Positions 14,040 to 46,355 of a DNA stretch of 47,885 nucleotides are shown here, in pieces. This DNA is from Chloroflexota bacterium. GTDB taxonomy: Bacteria; Chloroflexota; Anaerolineae; Promineifilales; Promineifilaceae. The stretch's first letter is position 1. Each line of letters begins with the position of its first letter. The stretch spans positions 1 to 47,885 of the forward strand of contig RFGV01000296.1 in assembly GCA_003696605.1 (NCBI GenBank), in the 5' to 3' direction. Position numbers and translations under genes: made by a program. The notes below the pieces were generated by a model. It saw only the letters and a program-made list of their open reading frames with translations. It had not been told where the DNA came from and did not search any database.

Positions 14040-16997
14040 ATGAAGACAAAGTGGCAAGTTCGATTGGGATATTGGGTGCATACGGCCGTTTTCAGCACAC
14101 TTGTTGTTATTACTACGCTCACATGCATTCGCCTGCTTTATGAGTCGCTTTTTCCCCGCTGGCTATGGGCAGGACGGCCGTTTCCCGTTGTTGGCCTCAC
14201 CCTTTTGGTAACCATACCGGTGCTCATCATTCACCACCGACAATCTTTAGCTGTCACCCCCTTTTCCCCACTCCTTCTTAACATCTTCTATCTCGTCAGC
14301 CCAAACGTCAATCTGGTAGCTGGTTGGCTTGTGCTGGGCGGGTCAGTCTGGCTAACGGCCGTTCTTTTCTGGCAACGCTCCCCCTCCCCCTCCTCATTTA
14401 TGGGGGTGCTCTGGCTATGGCTGGCACTGATTCCCATCTACTATGCGACGATGCCTCATGTCGTTGGTCAGGCTGATACATTTGAATTTCAGGTCGTTGC
14501 GCCACGGCTGGGTATTGTGCACCCCACCGGCTACCCCCTCTATTTGCTGTGGAGCAAGCTATTCACCCTATTACCATTTGGTACAGTTGCCTGGCGCATC
14601 AATGCCGGCACGGCCGTACTGGCACTGGCAGCCTGTACTATTCTGTACTTATTCACCAACCGTCTGCTCCAGCACTCGCTACCAGCTTTACTAACGGCCG
14701 TTACCTTTGGCCTTACCCCCACATTCTGGAGCCAGGCCATCGAAGCAGAAGTGTACGCATTACATGCGCTGGTAGTCATACTGGCATTGTGGCTCATGCA
14801 CCAACTACTCACTGCCACCCGTCGTCCTGAAGCCTGGCGCACTGTTTACAGACTTGTTTTTCTTATTGGTCTGGGACTGACCAACCACCTGACCACTGTC
14901 TTTCTGTTACCGCCGGCGGCTGTAACTGCCTGGCTGGCCTGGCGAGTGTGGCGCGAGCCGCTCCGTTCAGTGGCCACTCGTTTACCCCGACTGATTGTGG
15001 CTTTTGTGTTACCACTATCTTTGTACGCCTACCTACCTTTGCGTTGGCTGGCCGTAAATGGAGAACCAATGGGAGCAAGCCGTTTTGTGGATTGGGTAAT
15101 TGGTGGGCGATTTCAGGGTGCTTTGCAATGGTTGGCCTGGCTGAATGATCCTGCCCGCTATGCCATTATTGGCCGCCTGGTGCTGGCAGAGTGGGGCTGG
15201 CTGAATCTGGGGGTGGCAGGTGTGGGGTTATTGGCGCTTTTGTGGCGGAATTGGCGTATGACGGCCGTTTTGCTCATTACATGGCTGGGGTTTATCTTTT
15301 ACGCGCTTAACTATTATGTGCCAGACCTGGCTGTTTTTATTATTCCGGCTCATCTGGTAACGGCCGTTTTTTGGGCTGCTGGTCTCCACATGGCTTTTCG
15401 GGTTTTACGCCGCTTGTGGTCTCACGCTGGCATCCCGCTGGCGACGACGTTGCTCCTGTTGCCCACGTTGCTGGCTGCTGCCAGATATTGGCCTGAACTG
15501 GCCGACCGAAATGACCCGGCTCTTTTGCAATGGGGAACGGCCGTTTTGCGCTTGCCCATTCCCCAAAACGCGGCCATTTTGGCCGACAGTGAAAAAATCG
15601 CGCCTCTTTTCTATTTACAACAGGCAGAAAATGTGCGGCCTGACCTGGACATCATGGTTTTGCCTGACGAAGCGGCCTATCGGGCGGAACTGGACAAGCG
15701 GGTGGCATCCGGGCAACCGGTCTTTTTGGCTCGCTTTTTGCCTGGCCTGGAAGGTGTGTATCATCTGCGTTCGTTAGGCCCGCTAACAGAAGTAAGCCGC
15801 GAACCACTGACGCATCTGCCCGAAACGGCCGTTCCTGCCACCCTGACTTTTGGCGAAGTACGACTGTTAGGATATTCACTGGCCACAGAAGCGGCTACCA
15901 ACCCGCAAGAATCGGCCGTTACCCTATACTGGCAAGCCACCCAACCAATTACCCAAACACAGGTGGTTTACGTACGCTGGCAGGCCGAAGATTATACTGG
16001 CCAACCGGACGCACCTGCCGGGCAACATCCAGCCAACAACTACTATCCAATTGCTGCCTGGAAAGGGAATGAGATTGTACCCGACTATCATCACTGGCCC
16101 CGGCCTATGCCAGCCAAGCCGACACGTATGGCTTTGCAGGTCGCACTGGGCGCACCGTTTACACCGGCTAATGCCTTGAACTGGCAGACTGTCACAGAAA
16201 TCACACTGCACCCCTTGCCAGCACTGCCCCAGGAACGGCCGTATCGTCTCATCGTGGGGAACACAGCCATCACCGGTGCTACCTTCCCAGACCAGATTCG
16301 CCCGCAACAACCCTTGCCAATCACCATATCCGGCATTGGTTCGGCCGCAGAATTATCTCTGACCCTTGCAGAACAGTATCCACCTGCCACTCCCGATTTA
16401 CTTATTTCCCCAACTGTCACTTCTGGCAGTTTTACCTGGGCCACAGAATTGGCAACGAGCCAGAAAAACGGCCGTTATCACCTCATCCTCACACATCCCG
16501 GACAAGCCGCTTTCTGTGGCTGGCTCACTCCCCCTGCCAGTGGCTGCTCTCTGGGAATCATTACCCTTAGCGGTGTCCCCCTGCCACCAGATGCCATCAA
16601 CTTTGAAGATAAAATCGCCCTGCTAAAGACAGAAATACCAGAAACAAGCCTGCATCCAGGCGGCCAATTTGCCGTCACATTCACCTGGCAAGCATTATCC
16701 CCTATCGCTGAAGATTACACCGTATTTGTCCAAATTTTGGACGCCAATGACAAGCTTGTAGGGCAGGTAGATGCCTGGCCAATGCAAGGGACATTCCCCA
16801 CCAGCCAATGGTCTCCTGGCGAAATCATCACCGATCCCTACGTGATACAACTCCCGGCAGACTTGCCACCAGGTGAATACCGGTTGCAGGCCGGTTTTTA
16901 CTTGCTGGCTACTCTACGCCGGTTGCCGGTTGTTGATGCCAATGGCACACCCGTAGATGATAAAGTGGTAATACCAGGGCTTATCCATCAACCTTAG
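14040..16997 (+). CDS. DUF2723-family multi-pass glycosyltransferase (protein O-mannosyltransferase-like)
   Basis: The protein is about 985 residues. The N-terminal half has about twelve membrane helices. Near the start of the DUF2723 domain lies the family block QADTFEFQVVAPRLGIVHPT with GYPLYLL following it, where acidic residues on the first outer loop serve as catalytic base in GT-C enzymes. The C-terminal 400 residues are soluble and beta-rich, with repeated Ig-like strands, and lie outside the cell. It probably transfers a lipid-linked sugar to proteins or polymers. The start is uncertain: ATG at 14040 or 14022. TACAAT at 14027-14032 could be a -10 of a leaderless message starting at 14040. 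It contains 12 CGGCCG cores, the highest density in the window. Its end overlaps the convergent MEMO gene by 17 bases. Confidence 0.85.
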   Translation: MKTKWQVRLGYWVHTAVFSTLVVITTLTCIRLLYESLFPRWLWAGRPFPVVGLTLLVTIPVLIIHHRQSLAVTPFSPLLLNIFYLVSPNVNLVAGWLVLGGSVWLTAVLFWQRSPSPSSFMGVLWLWLALIPIYYATMPHVVGQADTFEFQVVAPRLGIVHPTGYPLYLLWSKLFTLLPFGTVAWRINAGTAVLALAACTILYLFTNRLLQHSLPALLTAVTFGLTPTFWSQAIEAEVYALHALVVILALWLMHQLLTATRRPEAWRTVYRLVFLIGLGLTNHLTTVFLLPPAAVTAWLAWRVWREPLRSVATRLPRLIVAFVLPLSLYAYLPLRWLAVNGEPMGASRFVDWVIGGRFQGALQWLAWLNDPARYAIIGRLVLAEWGWLNLGVAGVGLLALLWRNWRMTAVLLITWLGFIFYALNYYVPDLAVFIIPAHLVTAVFWAAGLHMAFRVLRRLWSHAGIPLATTLLLLPTLLAAARYWPELADRNDPALLQWGTAVLRLPIPQNAAILADSEKIAPLFYLQQAENVRPDLDIMVLPDEAAYRAELDKRVASGQPVFLARFLPGLEGVYHLRSLGPLTEVSREPLTHLPETAVPATLTFGEVRLLGYSLATEAATNPQESAVTLYWQATQPITQTQVVYVRWQAEDYTGQPDAPAGQHPANNYYPIAAWKGNEIVPDYHHWPRPMPAKPTRMALQVALGAPFTPANALNWQTVTEITLHPLPALPQERPYRLIVGNTAITGATFPDQIRPQQPLPITISGIGSAAELSLTLAEQYPPATPDLLISPTVTSGSFTWATELATSQKNGRYHLILTHPGQAAFCGWLTPPASGCSLGIITLSGVPLPPDAINFEDKIALLKTEIPETSLHPGGQFAVTFTWQALSPIAEDYTVFVQILDANDKLVGQVDAWPMQGTFPTSQWSPGEIITDPYVIQLPADLPPGEYRLQAGFYLLATLRRLPVVDANGTPVDDKVVIPGLIHQP

Positions 16998-30310: not shown

Positions 30311-32218
30311 ATGCAAGCAACATCACGACGAGAACGATTTAACCGTCCCCGACCGGGCAACCGCTCATTGGGACGCGCTATCCGGTATGTAGGGCGATAC
30401 CCACGTATCACCATAACGGCCGTACTTGCCCTCTTCATCGCCACTGCTGCCCAACTCACCGTTCCCCAACTCATCCAACAAATCATCGACACCATCATCA
30501 CCAACGCCACCAACAAAGCCATTCTTGACCTCCCTCCCGAAATCCAGCAATTTGTCTCCCAACGCCTTGGTCTTGACCTCGCCAACATGCAACTTGACCT
30601 GGACAACGCCCCTCGGGCATTACTCATCGCAGGTATCACTGTCGTCATCTTTGCCATCGCTCGCGGTCTCTTCACCTTTGCCCAAACCTATTTCTCCCAG
30701 GTCCTCTCCCAAAACATCGCCTTTGAACTCCGCAACGACATCTTCGCCAAAATTCAGCGACTCAGCTTTAGCTACCATGACCGCAATCAGACCGGCCAAC
30801 TCATGATTCGCGCTACTGATGATGTGGAACGCCTCAGAATTTTTTTGGCACAAGGATTACTCATGGCCTTACAGGCTTTCATTCTGCTTGTTGGTACAAT
30901 TATTATCCTTTTTGCCACCAACACTCAGCTAACCCTCGTTGTCCTGCCCATTCTTCCCATCGCCCTAATTGTGTTTATGGTCTTCGGCACAGTCGTACAA
31001 CCTCTGTTTCGCGAAGTACAGCAACGACTGGCCCGTGTCAATACCATCCTGCAAGAAAACTTGGCTGGTCTCAAAGTTGTCAAGGCCTTTGCTACCGAGC
31101 CGTATGAAGTTGCCCGTTTCGACAAAAGTATTCAGGATTTGCTGGAACAACGAATCCGCATCAGCCGCACATTCTCTTTTCTGTTTCCCTTTGTTTTCTT
31201 GATCGCCAACCTGGGACAAGCGGCCGTTTTGTACTTTGGCGGGCGTCAGATCATCAATGGCACCCTGACATTGGGCGAATGGCAAAAGTTCAGCCTCTAC
31301 CTCATTTATGTATTTATTCCAATGGGACAACTAGGCTTCATCATTTCCCTCATGGCGCAGGCAGGAGCCAGCGCTCAGCGTATATTTGAAATCCTGGATG
31401 CCAAAAATGAAGTGGCCAACAAACCAGATGCCATTGAACTTCCACCCATTGAAGGGCGTGTTACCTTTGATAACGTCACCTTTCGTTATTTTCCCGGCAG
31501 CGAACCAGTATTGAAAAATGTCAGCTTTACGGCCGAACCTGGTCAAACCATTGCCTTGTTGGGTGCTACCGGAAGTGGAAAAACCACCATCATCAATCTC
31601 ATCCCCCGCTTCTATGATGTCAGCGAAGGGCGTGTTCTGATTGATGGGCATGATGTACGGGATGTCACCATTGAAAGTTTGCGGCGGCAAATCGGCATTG
31701 TGCTGCAAGAGACAACTCTCTTTACAGGTACAATCCGTGACAATATTGCCTTTGGCCGCCCAGATGCAACCGATGAGGAAATTATGGCAGCGGCGAAAGC
31801 GGCTGCTGCCCACGACTTCATCATGTCATTCCCCCAGGGGTATGACACGCCCGTAGGTGAGCGAGGCTCAACGCTTAGTGGGGGACAAAAGCAACGAGTG
31901 GCTATTGCCCGTGCTTTGCTCATGAACCCGCGCATTTTGATTTTGGATGACTCGACCAGTAGTGTCGATTTGCAAACAGAGTATCAGATCCAAAAGGCAC
32001 TGGACAAGCTCATGGAAGGGCGCACCAGTTTCGTTATTGCTCAGCGTATCAGCACAGTCTTGAATGCTGACCAGATTTTGGTGCTGGACAAGGGAGAAAT
32101 TGTTGCGCGTGGTGTGCATGAAGAGTTGATGGAGAACAGTCCGATTTATGCAGAAATTTATCATTCGCAATTGGCTGAAGATGTGGAAATAGAACTTACG
32201 GGGGAATCTCATGATTGA
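30311..32218 (+). CDS. ABC exporter half-transporter with degenerate ATP site (heterodimer subunit 1)
   Basis: The 635-residue protein has an N-terminal six-helix ABC exporter membrane domain (about 30-340) and a nucleotide-binding domain. The Walker A is GATGSGKTT near 417-425 and the signature STLSGGQKQR is canonical. The Walker B region reads ILILDDSTSSVD, with Asp where the catalytic Glu should be, and the switch loop reads VIAQRIST, with Gln for His. These two changes mark the non-catalytic site of heterodimeric exporters such as TM287/288 and BmrCD. It is translated in an eight-base overlap with the partner gene. The substrate is probably a drug, lipid or peptide. AGGAGAG precedes the ATG. 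Confidence 0.94.
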   Translation: MQATSRRERFNRPRPGNRSLGRAIRYVGRYPRITITAVLALFIATAAQLTVPQLIQQIIDTIITNATNKAILDLPPEIQQFVSQRLGLDLANMQLDLDNAPRALLIAGITVVIFAIARGLFTFAQTYFSQVLSQNIAFELRNDIFAKIQRLSFSYHDRNQTGQLMIRATDDVERLRIFLAQGLLMALQAFILLVGTIIILFATNTQLTLVVLPILPIALIVFMVFGTVVQPLFREVQQRLARVNTILQENLAGLKVVKAFATEPYEVARFDKSIQDLLEQRIRISRTFSFLFPFVFLIANLGQAAVLYFGGRQIINGTLTLGEWQKFSLYLIYVFIPMGQLGFIISLMAQAGASAQRIFEILDAKNEVANKPDAIELPPIEGRVTFDNVTFRYFPGSEPVLKNVSFTAEPGQTIALLGATGSGKTTIINLIPRFYDVSEGRVLIDGHDVRDVTIESLRRQIGIVLQETTLFTGTIRDNIAFGRPDATDEEIMAAAKAAAAHDFIMSFPQGYDTPVGERGSTLSGGQKQRVAIARALLMNPRILILDDSTSSVDLQTEYQIQKALDKLMEGRTSFVIAQRISTVLNADQILVLDKGEIVARGVHEELMENSPIYAEIYHSQLAEDVEIELTGESHD

Positions 32219-34196
32219 TCGGCAGGCACAATTACTTGGAACTGAAGTCAGGAAAGCCCGTAGTGTCAGTCAAACGCTGAAGCGGTTTTGGGGATATTTT
32301 CGGCGATATTCGTGGGCGCTGATATTAACGGCCGTTTTTGTCATCGCTGGTACCTATATGCAAGTCCTGATACCCGATCTCACCGGTCAGGCTGTGGACT
32401 GCTATTTAGGTCCCTTCGCCGCCCGCTCCTTCGCAGAAGGCAATTTCGCCGATTTCCTCAATCAACTACCGGCTGGTGTCCAGCCCCCCGTCGATAGTGG
32501 CGATGCATTCAGTAACTGCTGGTACACCACACCAGACCTCACTGCGACGGCTGATGACACATTGCTCAATTTCGGCAAACTCATTCTGATAATCATTCTG
32601 CTCTATCTGGGCAACGCCATATTAAGCGGCATCCAGTTCTATCTGATGAGCTGGTCAGGCTTCCATGTATTGCGCGACCTGCGGGCAGAAGTATTTCGGC
32701 ACGTCCACCGTCTTTCCCTGGGATACTTCACCCGTCACGAGGCTGGCGATGTTATGAGTCGTTTTACCAACGACACAGACACTTTACAACAAGTCATTGG
32801 TTTTGGGCTGGTCAGCGTGGTACAAGGCGTCCTACTCATCGGCTGGATTGTGTACCAGATGCTTAGTCGCAGTTTTGCATTCGCCCTGATCAGCCTGGTC
32901 ACGTTGCCTCTGATGGTATTGGCCACCCGCTGGTTTTCCAATCAGGCTCGCAAGGCATTTCGCCGGGCGCGATTGGAAATTGGTGCCGTAAATGCTGACC
33001 TTCAGGAAAGTATTTCAGCTGTACGTGAGGTACAGGCGTTTAGCCGTGAAGAAGAAAATATTGCCCAGTTTCGGGAAAGCAATGCGGCAAATCGGGATGC
33101 AAACATTCGGGCACAAATGTACACCAGTGCATTGGCACCTACATTGGAAGCGTTGAGCTATGTAAGTATGGCCATTGTGGCTGGCGTGGGTGGCTTTTAC
33201 ATTTTAAGCGGCCAGCCATTTTTTGGCTCAACCATTTCGGTAGGATTGATTGTGACCTTTATTGCTTATACGCAACAGTTCAACCGGCCTGTGCAGCAAA
33301 TTGCCTTGCTTTGGGCAAATATCCAGAGTGCGGTGGCCGGGGGTGAGCGAATTTTTGACTTGCTGGATGAACCGGCTGAAATTACTGACAAACCGGATGC
33401 GATTGAAATGCCGCCAATTAAGGGGCATGTGCGTTATGAGGATGTGTGGGCAGAATATAATCCGGGTGAGCCGATTCTTAAGGGTATTAACATTGAGGCG
33501 CAGCCGGGGGAAACGGTGGCAATTGTAGGCCCAACTGGTGCCGGAAAAACAACTATCATCAATCTGTTGCCTCGTTTTTGGGATGTGACGCAAGGACGGG
33601 TGTTGATTGATGGGTATGATGTGCGGGATGTGACGCAACATAGTTTGCGACGTCAGATTGGTATTGTGTTGCAGGATACGTTTTTGTTTAGTGACACGGT
33701 GATGAATAATATTCGTTACGGCCGTCCTGATGCCACCGATGATGAGGTGATTGCTGCAGCCAGGCTGGCACGGGCTCATGATTTCATTATGCGGTTACCA
33801 GATGGGTATAACACGGTGTTGGGTGAACGGGGTGCTGGCCTGAGCCAGGGTCAACGGCAGTTACTGGCCATTGCTCGTGTGGCTCTTACTAATCCGCGCA
33901 TTCTCATTCTGGATGAGGCAACAAGTAGTGTGGATACACGTACAGAGCGGGAAATTCAAAAAGCTTTGGAGGTTTTGCTGGAAGGGCGCACAAGTTTTGT
34001 GATTGCCCATCGCCTGAGCACAATTCGGAATGCGGATCAGGTGCTGGTGCTGAATGAAGGGGAAATTATTGAGCGGGGAACGCACAAGGATTTGCTGGCA
34101 GCCAAAGGATTTTATTACCGGCTGTATATGAGCCAGTTTCGCCGGGAAGTGCCAGACGAGGAAGAGGATACGGCCTTTTTTGTGCCGGGTGATTAG
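32211..34196 (+). CDS. ABC exporter half-transporter with canonical ATP site (heterodimer subunit 2)
   Basis: The 661-residue protein has a six-helix membrane domain with a long first outer loop (about 50-110) and a nucleotide-binding domain. It has Walker A GPTGAGKTT near 439, Walker B ILILDEATSSVD with the catalytic Glu, and the switch His in VIAHRLST. Its signature motif is GLSQGQRQ rather than LSGGQ. With subunit 1 it would form one active and one degenerate ATP site, the rule for heterodimeric exporters. It ends at a 17-bp inverted repeat that probably terminates the operon. Confidence 0.94.
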   Translation: MIDRQAQLLGTEVRKARSVSQTLKRFWGYFRRYSWALILTAVFVIAGTYMQVLIPDLTGQAVDCYLGPFAARSFAEGNFADFLNQLPAGVQPPVDSGDAFSNCWYTTPDLTATADDTLLNFGKLILIIILLYLGNAILSGIQFYLMSWSGFHVLRDLRAEVFRHVHRLSLGYFTRHEAGDVMSRFTNDTDTLQQVIGFGLVSVVQGVLLIGWIVYQMLSRSFAFALISLVTLPLMVLATRWFSNQARKAFRRARLEIGAVNADLQESISAVREVQAFSREEENIAQFRESNAANRDANIRAQMYTSALAPTLEALSYVSMAIVAGVGGFYILSGQPFFGSTISVGLIVTFIAYTQQFNRPVQQIALLWANIQSAVAGGERIFDLLDEPAEITDKPDAIEMPPIKGHVRYEDVWAEYNPGEPILKGINIEAQPGETVAIVGPTGAGKTTIINLLPRFWDVTQGRVLIDGYDVRDVTQHSLRRQIGIVLQDTFLFSDTVMNNIRYGRPDATDDEVIAAARLARAHDFIMRLPDGYNTVLGERGAGLSQGQRQLLAIARVALTNPRILILDEATSSVDTRTEREIQKALEVLLEGRTSFVIAHRLSTIRNADQVLVLNEGEIIERGTHKDLLAAKGFYYRLYMSQFRREVPDEEEDTAFFVPGD

Positions 34197-34216
34197 GACA
34201 GTACCAAGAGAGATAT

Positions 34217-34265
34217 GGAAAACGGCCGTTATTCACACAAATAACGCAAATAACGGCCGTTTTCC
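34217..34265. terminator. 17-bp perfect inverted repeat made of two CGGCCG palindromes, probable bidirectional terminator
   Basis: GGAAAACGGCCGTTATT (34217-34233) and AATAACGGCCGTTTTCC (34249-34265) are exact complements with a 15-base loop. The element sits between the convergent ABC exporter and alpha/beta hydrolase genes. The loop and right arm contain a tandem nine-base repeat CAAATAACG (34238-34255). There is only a short T run, so termination is likely but not certain. Each arm is itself palindromic, so cruciform or four-way forms are possible. Confidence 0.7.
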
Positions 34266-34271
34266 TGGCCC

Positions 34272-35225
34272 TCAATTCCCTAAATACTGCTCCAAAAACG
34301 CAATCGCCACCTTCGGATGATTAACCAAATACTGATACCCTTCAAACCGGTGCATCGTTTCCACCAACAATGGACTGACAGCACATGGTGTTGCTTCTAC
34401 CATACGCATCACATCGGGCACACTTCCCCAGCGATCCCCCTTCCCCTGCACATACAATATTGGTGTTTCACCAGCCCCTGCGGCCACAAATGCCGGCTGA
34501 ATAGCCGAAAATCCCGGACCACCTGACAACCGATATACCAAATCAACCAACGGCAAAACCACCCGGCTTAATATCCCCATCATTTCCGCACCATACCGAC
34601 GGGCAAAAAGGGATACAGTCGTTGGCTGCACAGCAATCCCGGCTTTGATGCTATCTGTACGTGGCAAGGCATAAAGCAGGGTATTAGCCCCCATAGAAAA
34701 GCCAATCACGCCAATTCGTTGCGGATTTACCTCCGATCGTTCCTTCAGAAATTGCAATGCCCCCAACAAATCGTTGGCTTCTGATTGGCCAAATGTAACC
34801 GGCGGTGCAGCGGCGCTCTCCCCATGATTACGCAAATCAAACATGAGTACATGAAAACCAGCTTGATGCAATGCATAGGCCAATCGTAATAAATCAACTG
34901 GTGTGGTGCCGTTCAATTTGGCCAGTACGTCCTGAGCTGATTCACCCAGGCGATTCCAGGGCCAACCGTGTACTAAGACAACCGTAGCGCCATCGCGGCC
35001 ATTTTCGGAATGAGCCGGAATAAACCAGCCGGATAACCGCACACCATCTGCCGCCGGAAACTGAACTGCCTCGTAATCCATATCCAGGCTGGCCGGTGTG
35101 GTCCACAATCGTTGCCGTGGCGGTTGAATGACACGCCGGGCAAACATAAAAACGGCCGTTCCCACCACCCCGGCCAACACACCATATAACCAAAATAACC
35201 ATCGCAATACCCGACGGAAACTCAT
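34272..35225 (-). CDS. Membrane-anchored alpha/beta hydrolase
   Basis: The 317-residue protein begins with a membrane segment (about 8-27, LFWLYGVLAGVVGTAVFMFA) and then a Ser hydrolase fold: VVLVHGWPWNR (oxyanion loop), FDLRNHGES, GVIGFSMGANTLLYA with the nucleophilic Ser in GxSxG, and a late HRFEGYQYL with the likely catalytic His. It resembles BAAT/YfhR-like acyl hydrolases, with substrate unknown. GGAGAGG stands before the ATG at 35225, which decides against a start at 35243. It is divergent from the TPR gene. Confidence 0.87.
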   Translation of the reverse strand: MSFRRVLRWLFWLYGVLAGVVGTAVFMFARRVIQPPRQRLWTTPASLDMDYEAVQFPAADGVRLSGWFIPAHSENGRDGATVVLVHGWPWNRLGESAQDVLAKLNGTTPVDLLRLAYALHQAGFHVLMFDLRNHGESAAAPPVTFGQSEANDLLGALQFLKERSEVNPQRIGVIGFSMGANTLLYALPRTDSIKAGIAVQPTTVSLFARRYGAEMMGILSRVVLPLVDLVYRLSGGPGFSAIQPAFVAAGAGETPILYVQGKGDRWGSVPDVMRMVEATPCAVSPLLVETMHRFEGYQYLVNHPKVAIAFLEQYLGN

Positions 35226-35391
35226 TATCCTCTCCTTTACCATCTGCCCAAATATTCACACATAACCGATTATATCCCCAAGCATAAATAATCAGTAAAA
35301 AAGCCTCTTTCTCTCCTGTTCCCTGTTGTTTCCCTCAAAATATCAGATAAACTAATAATTGGGTTTTTGGGTAACAATAAGGATCTAATAA

Positions 35392-46315: not shown

Positions 46316-46355
46316 AACGGCCGTTTCTCCAACCCCTACAAGAGAAACGGCCGTT
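46316..46355. terminator. 14-bp perfect inverted repeat made of two CGGCCG palindromes, probable bidirectional terminator
   Basis: AACGGCCGTTTCTC (46316-46329) and GAGAAACGGCCGTT (46342-46355) are exact complements with a 12-base loop. The element sits between the convergent permease and UDP-glucose dehydrogenase genes, the same layout as at 34217-34265. No long T run follows. Confidence 0.68.

Follow-up and report, generated by a model that had tools for sequence, protein, structure and literature searches.

Two kinds of short motif that are iterated across bacterial genomes bear on the locus described here. In Neisseria and the Pasteurellaceae, closely spaced inverted copies of the uptake sequences (DUS and USS) form terminator hairpins that are enriched between tail-to-tail genes (Kingsford et al. 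2007, PMC1852404; PMC2397512), and the enrichment of these pairs between convergent genes holds even when the distribution of the single motif is allowed for (PMC1852404; PMC2397512). The terminator pairs of Neisseria have long stems and fewer Ts in their tails (PMC1852404). The second kind is represented by HIP1 (GCGATCGC) of cyanobacteria, which goes together with orphan methyltransferases for sites internal to it (PMC4390886); the text of that paper mentions neither terminators nor hairpins.

The present locus lies in a window of 47,885 nucleotides, the whole stretch of DNA from an uncultured Chloroflexota bacterium that was analysed. We read its element at 34217-34265 with considerable confidence as a putative bidirectional hairpin of the intrinsic-terminator type, assembled from a HIP-like repeat, the ten-letter palindrome AACGGCCGTT. 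That such an element could end transcription from both sides had been proposed in the first-pass annotation; two-way termination is now the most likely reading, predicted from the excess of motif pairs at convergent gene ends and from the hairpins that relatives hold at the same junction. The genes, called with a codon-usage script that gave sensible output for the window, and the parts of the element are as follows.

32211-34196, plus strand: ABC exporter (transmembrane and ATPase domains), the second of two tandem ABC genes, ending 20 nt before the hairpin
34217-34233, no strand assigned: left arm, 17 nt, GGAAAACGGCCGTTATT, containing one AACGGCCGTT at 34221-34230
34234-34248, no strand assigned: loop, 15 nt; the presumed ancestral state, lacking the 9-bp duplication, is a loop of 6 nt (CACACA)
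34238-34255, plus strand: tandem duplication of CAAATAACG over loop and right arm
34249-34265, no strand assigned: right arm, 17 nt, AATAACGGCCGTTTTCC, containing the second AACGGCCGTT at 34252-34261
34260-34265, plus strand: TTTTCC, the short U-tract of the ABC transcript; the opposite strand also reads TTTTCC, at 34222-34217
34272-35243, minus strand: alpha/beta hydrolase, convergent; 6 nt lie between its stop codon and the hairpin
46316-46355, no strand assigned: second palindrome-pair hairpin of the window, with a 14-bp stem, between convergent genes (46269, plus; 46370, minus)

The geometry first reported for the site, a perfect 17-bp hairpin between the convergent ABC exporter and hydrolase genes whose arms stand 15 bases apart and each enclose a complete palindrome, is borne out in every particular: the arms are 100% complementary and 15 nt separate them. 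The predicted RNA fold of 34205-34275 has a free energy of -29.9 kcal/mol (z -7.4, with none of 200 shuffles equally good), and the opposite strand of the hairpin also folds strongly. A stable, GC-containing stem of 17 bp just behind both stop codons, at 20 nt and 6 nt, is what is looked for in an intrinsic terminator. A simple terminator scan with a loop limit of 8 nt did not return the element because its loop is longer than that limit; many other pairs have loops of 4-12 nt, a range that would include the 6-nt loop presumed before the duplication. An Rfam search gave no match at the element. Origin as a mobile element or part of a larger repeat was considered and rejected: beyond this element the genome has just four further copies of the 17-mer arm, compared over the arm alone.

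Much of this structure comes with the motif. AACGGCCGTT is self-complementary, so any two neighbouring copies form a stem of at least 10 bp, and 10 of the element's 17 base pairs are thus supplied automatically. The remainder are matched bases beyond the core, GGAA/TTCC on the outside and ATT/AAT on the inside, and at least seven such extra pairs arise in about 0.5% of randomly paired intergenic copies of the motif. The 17-bp stem therefore exceeds what two random copies would give. The earlier description of a palindrome of palindromes stands insofar as the stem is longer than chance pairing would make it; in part, the nesting is inherent to the repeat and to its flanks, which have a palindromic consensus of their own, roughly GGRAACGGCCGTTYCC (summarised by eye). 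The tandem nine-base repeat noticed in the loop and right arm is likewise present, CAAATAACG occurring twice at 34238-34255, and it is one of only two perfect tandem 9-mers in an intergenic sample of 87 kb. Slippage that enlarged a 6-nt loop to 15 nt is plausible as the simplest reading of this duplication; as an account of how the element grew, slippage may apply to the loop and not to the arms, which were not built that way.

The 4.92-Mb genome has 3085 copies of the palindrome itself, whereas a reversed-sequence control gives 25, and the window has 45 copies, against 0.1 expected. The palindrome equals its own reverse complement and its counts are equal on both strands. Single copies have an even distribution over genes (0.78/kb) and intergenic DNA, with a density in convergent regions above the genome mean, and within genes one reading frame is favoured, xxA ACG GCC GTT. 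Within the family, roughly one sampled genome in two has hundreds to thousands of copies and the others few, and outside the family the count is at most 9 per sampled genome; the named relatives are uncultured Chloroflexota (Anaerolineae, Ardenticatenia, Promineifilum). With its perfect palindromy and great excess both in genes and between them, AACGGCCGTT is a HIP-like repeat. It shares with HIP1 the short perfect palindrome, the thousands of copies and the spread through coding sequence, here with a preferred reading frame and a patchy occurrence among relatives, and it differs in sequence and in that a search with the profile for the C5 class (PF00145) found no C5 DNA methyltransferase in its genome. 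Such a methyltransferase was rejected as the cause of the repeat: that search found none here, and among the relatives its occurrence did not clearly follow the number of motif copies. Our literature search found no paper that describes AACGGCCGTT as a repeat, nor one on iterated palindromes in Chloroflexi.

The even spread of single copies implies that the palindrome has some role other than termination, and would suit a DNA-level signal, such as an uptake sequence, a methylation site or the binding site of a dimeric protein, with pairing at gene ends merely incidental. A ComEC-type competence gene, found in the genome, points the same way. However, ComEC is widespread among bacteria and is weak evidence for a role in uptake, the methylation variant is opposed by the missing PF00145 enzyme, and a DNA-level signal leaves unexplained the pairs at 3' ends, the extended stems and the outward T-tracts documented below. 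As an explanation of the hairpin we regard it as improbable.

A further alternative is that chance has placed two copies of so common a palindrome side by side, and that the hairpin they form has no function. All 46 close pairs in the genome, defined as two copies with a gap of 4-34, were located, and about 60 would be expected genome-wide from 3085 copies; moreover, any pair is bound to fold, and the consensus in the flanks adds further base pairs at no cost. Against chance stands the placement of the pairs. In a sample of 18.6% of the genome that contains every close pair, with counts that are approximations owing to the gene calls and contig sampling behind them, convergent regions hold 5 pairs against 0.55 expected at mean motif density and codirectional regions 13 against 2.4, whereas divergent regions show no excess (1 against 1.2) and the inside of genes a deficit (24 against 53). 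The same distribution recurs in G001, which belongs to another genus of the family: 9 pairs against 0.37 expected in convergent regions, 17 against 2.4 in codirectional regions, 2 against 1.5 in divergent regions, again no excess, and 17 against 32 inside genes, again a deficit. Over-representation of paired copies where convergent genes end had been named beforehand as a test. It is seen in both genomes relative to mean motif density; with the single-copy density of convergent regions as the baseline, the excess in the element's own genome falls short of significance (5 pairs against 2.6, P 0.13). The codirectional excess persists when that class's own single-copy density is used (13 against 4.2, P 0.0005). 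Pairs are thus also frequent behind codirectional genes and mark 3' ends generally, and the deficit within genes perhaps reflects selection against hairpins in coding sequence.

The form of the intergenic pairs is equally difficult to reconcile with chance. Their stems extend past the core by a mean of 3.2 in the element's own genome and 3.1 in G001, compared with 0.7 and 0.65 for pairs within genes (P 3e-6 and P 4e-6, respectively). Single intergenic copies paired at random extend by 1.5, and in 20,000 draws the mean seen for intergenic pairs was never attained. The outward flanks of intergenic pairs are T-richer, with a tail score that differs from that of gene pairs at P 1.5e-5 and from that of single intergenic copies at P 0.0008, and most intergenic pairs lie some 20-50 nt past a stop codon. 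Taken with the pairs at gene 3' ends, far above expectation in two genera, and with the hairpins of other sequence that relatives hold at this junction, these traits leave chance neighbouring little credit.

The junction was also compared in relatives. The hydrolase is present in all 29 family genomes searched, and a convergent ABC neighbour was also seen at five relatives' loci (L094, L102, L106, L111 and L122, of which L106 and L111 belong to one genome and have junction sequences that resemble each other). All six hydrolase/ABC convergent junctions, our own included, hold a hairpin, whose z against mononucleotide shuffles ranges from -2.5 to -7.0; the five in relatives lack the palindrome and have no evident sequence likeness save that between L106 and L111. 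At L084 (genome G042), a homologous hydrolase with a different neighbour is followed, about 30 nt beyond its stop codon, by a palindrome pair that has A- and T-tracts. At these loci a hairpin is kept at the hydrolase/ABC junction and its sequence is replaced, which is how a terminator would be expected to behave. Across the element's own genome, 30 of the 50 convergent junctions of 25-600 bp have a strong hairpin, and the usual pattern is a GC-rich stem with an A-tract before and a T-tract after it. The palindrome occurs in 6 of 34 hairpins at such junctions, and most are without it; it supplies some of the terminator stems in this genome, alongside other sources.

On each strand of the element the U-tract consists of UUUU followed by CC, and in the full stem all four T pair with A; as an intrinsic-terminator tract it is weak. 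A tract as short as UUUUCC, next to a stem that is long, very stable and placed directly after both stop codons, could mean that the hairpin chiefly protects or defines mRNA 3' ends, as a barrier to 3' exonucleases after termination farther on, and terminates only weakly itself. We consider this unlikely, although it is the most probable of the three alternatives: the tail score of the element, 4.26, equals the mean of intergenic palindrome pairs and so is no lower than that of the others, and many pairs in G001 have clear U-tracts (for example CCGTTTTTTTCTTCT, and a full tract also in AACGGCCGTTTTTTTCTTCT). In addition, the two genes end 6-20 nt from the hairpin, and later termination would yield RNA antisense to the opposite gene.

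For termination in both directions, the following sequence of events may be envisaged. Each of the convergent mRNAs would traverse the element and, shortly after its stop codon, form the one 17-bp stem. The CGGCCG core of the palindrome makes this stem GC-rich, the AA/TT at the palindrome ends, extended to AAAA/TTTT, provides a short U-tract on both strands, and RNA polymerase would be expected to stop at the element. As to how the parts were gained, the likely order begins with the recruitment of two adjacent AACGGCCGTT copies, to which matching bases would have been added on both sides (GGAA/TTCC and ATT/AAT); the 9-bp tandem duplication would have come later and brought the loop from 6 nt up to its present 15 nt.

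Placed beside the described systems, the element resembles DUS and USS pairs in that a short motif with more than 1000 copies (here 3085) gives rise, in close pairs, to terminator-like hairpins, with an enrichment of close pairs at convergent ends, and it resembles those of Neisseria in its long stem with few tail Ts. It differs in several respects. The DUS and USS motifs are oriented and non-palindromic and must be inverted, whereas AACGGCCGTT is a perfect palindrome that pairs in any orientation; they are linked to DNA uptake, in which AACGGCCGTT is not known to act, a ComEC homologue alone having been seen; the host here is a member of the Chloroflexota; and the motif takes part in only about one sixth of the convergent-junction hairpins. 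With bidirectional intrinsic terminators at large it has in common the GC-rich stem between convergent genes, preceded by an A-tract and followed by a T-tract, and it is set apart from them by a stem drawn from a genome-wide repeat, a short U-tract and a long loop. On balance we favour the view that this Chloroflexota family draws bidirectional terminators from a HIP-like palindrome, with selection at the ends of genes retaining and extending the pairs, in which case the principle of the DUS terminators would have arisen independently with an orientation-free motif.

The device is thus of a known kind, and what is new is the motif and the host phylum. It extends the recruitment of genome-wide iterated motifs as terminator stems to another phylum and to a perfectly palindromic motif, and it gives the HIP-like repeat AACGGCCGTT one measurable selective use. 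The orthologous junctions, in which hairpin sequences are replaced and the structure is kept, make terminator turnover testable.

Several further arrangements of the palindrome were observed. The second hairpin of the window, at 46316-46355, has a good T-tract on its minus-strand side (TTTTTATTTT). In genome G012, the palindrome recurs every ~35 bp with similar spacers at C126 (7-394), C78 and C11, and these arrays look like tandem repeats built on it. Contig C16 of that genome carries five palindrome pairs within 3 kb (L151-L155) with a near-identical loop of 7-8 nt (TTGTGAAT), as if copied locally. At L028, the same pair hairpin with similar flanks lies at 473-511 and 14802-14840, near both ends of contig C104, which hints at a repeated segment or at the edge of an assembly.
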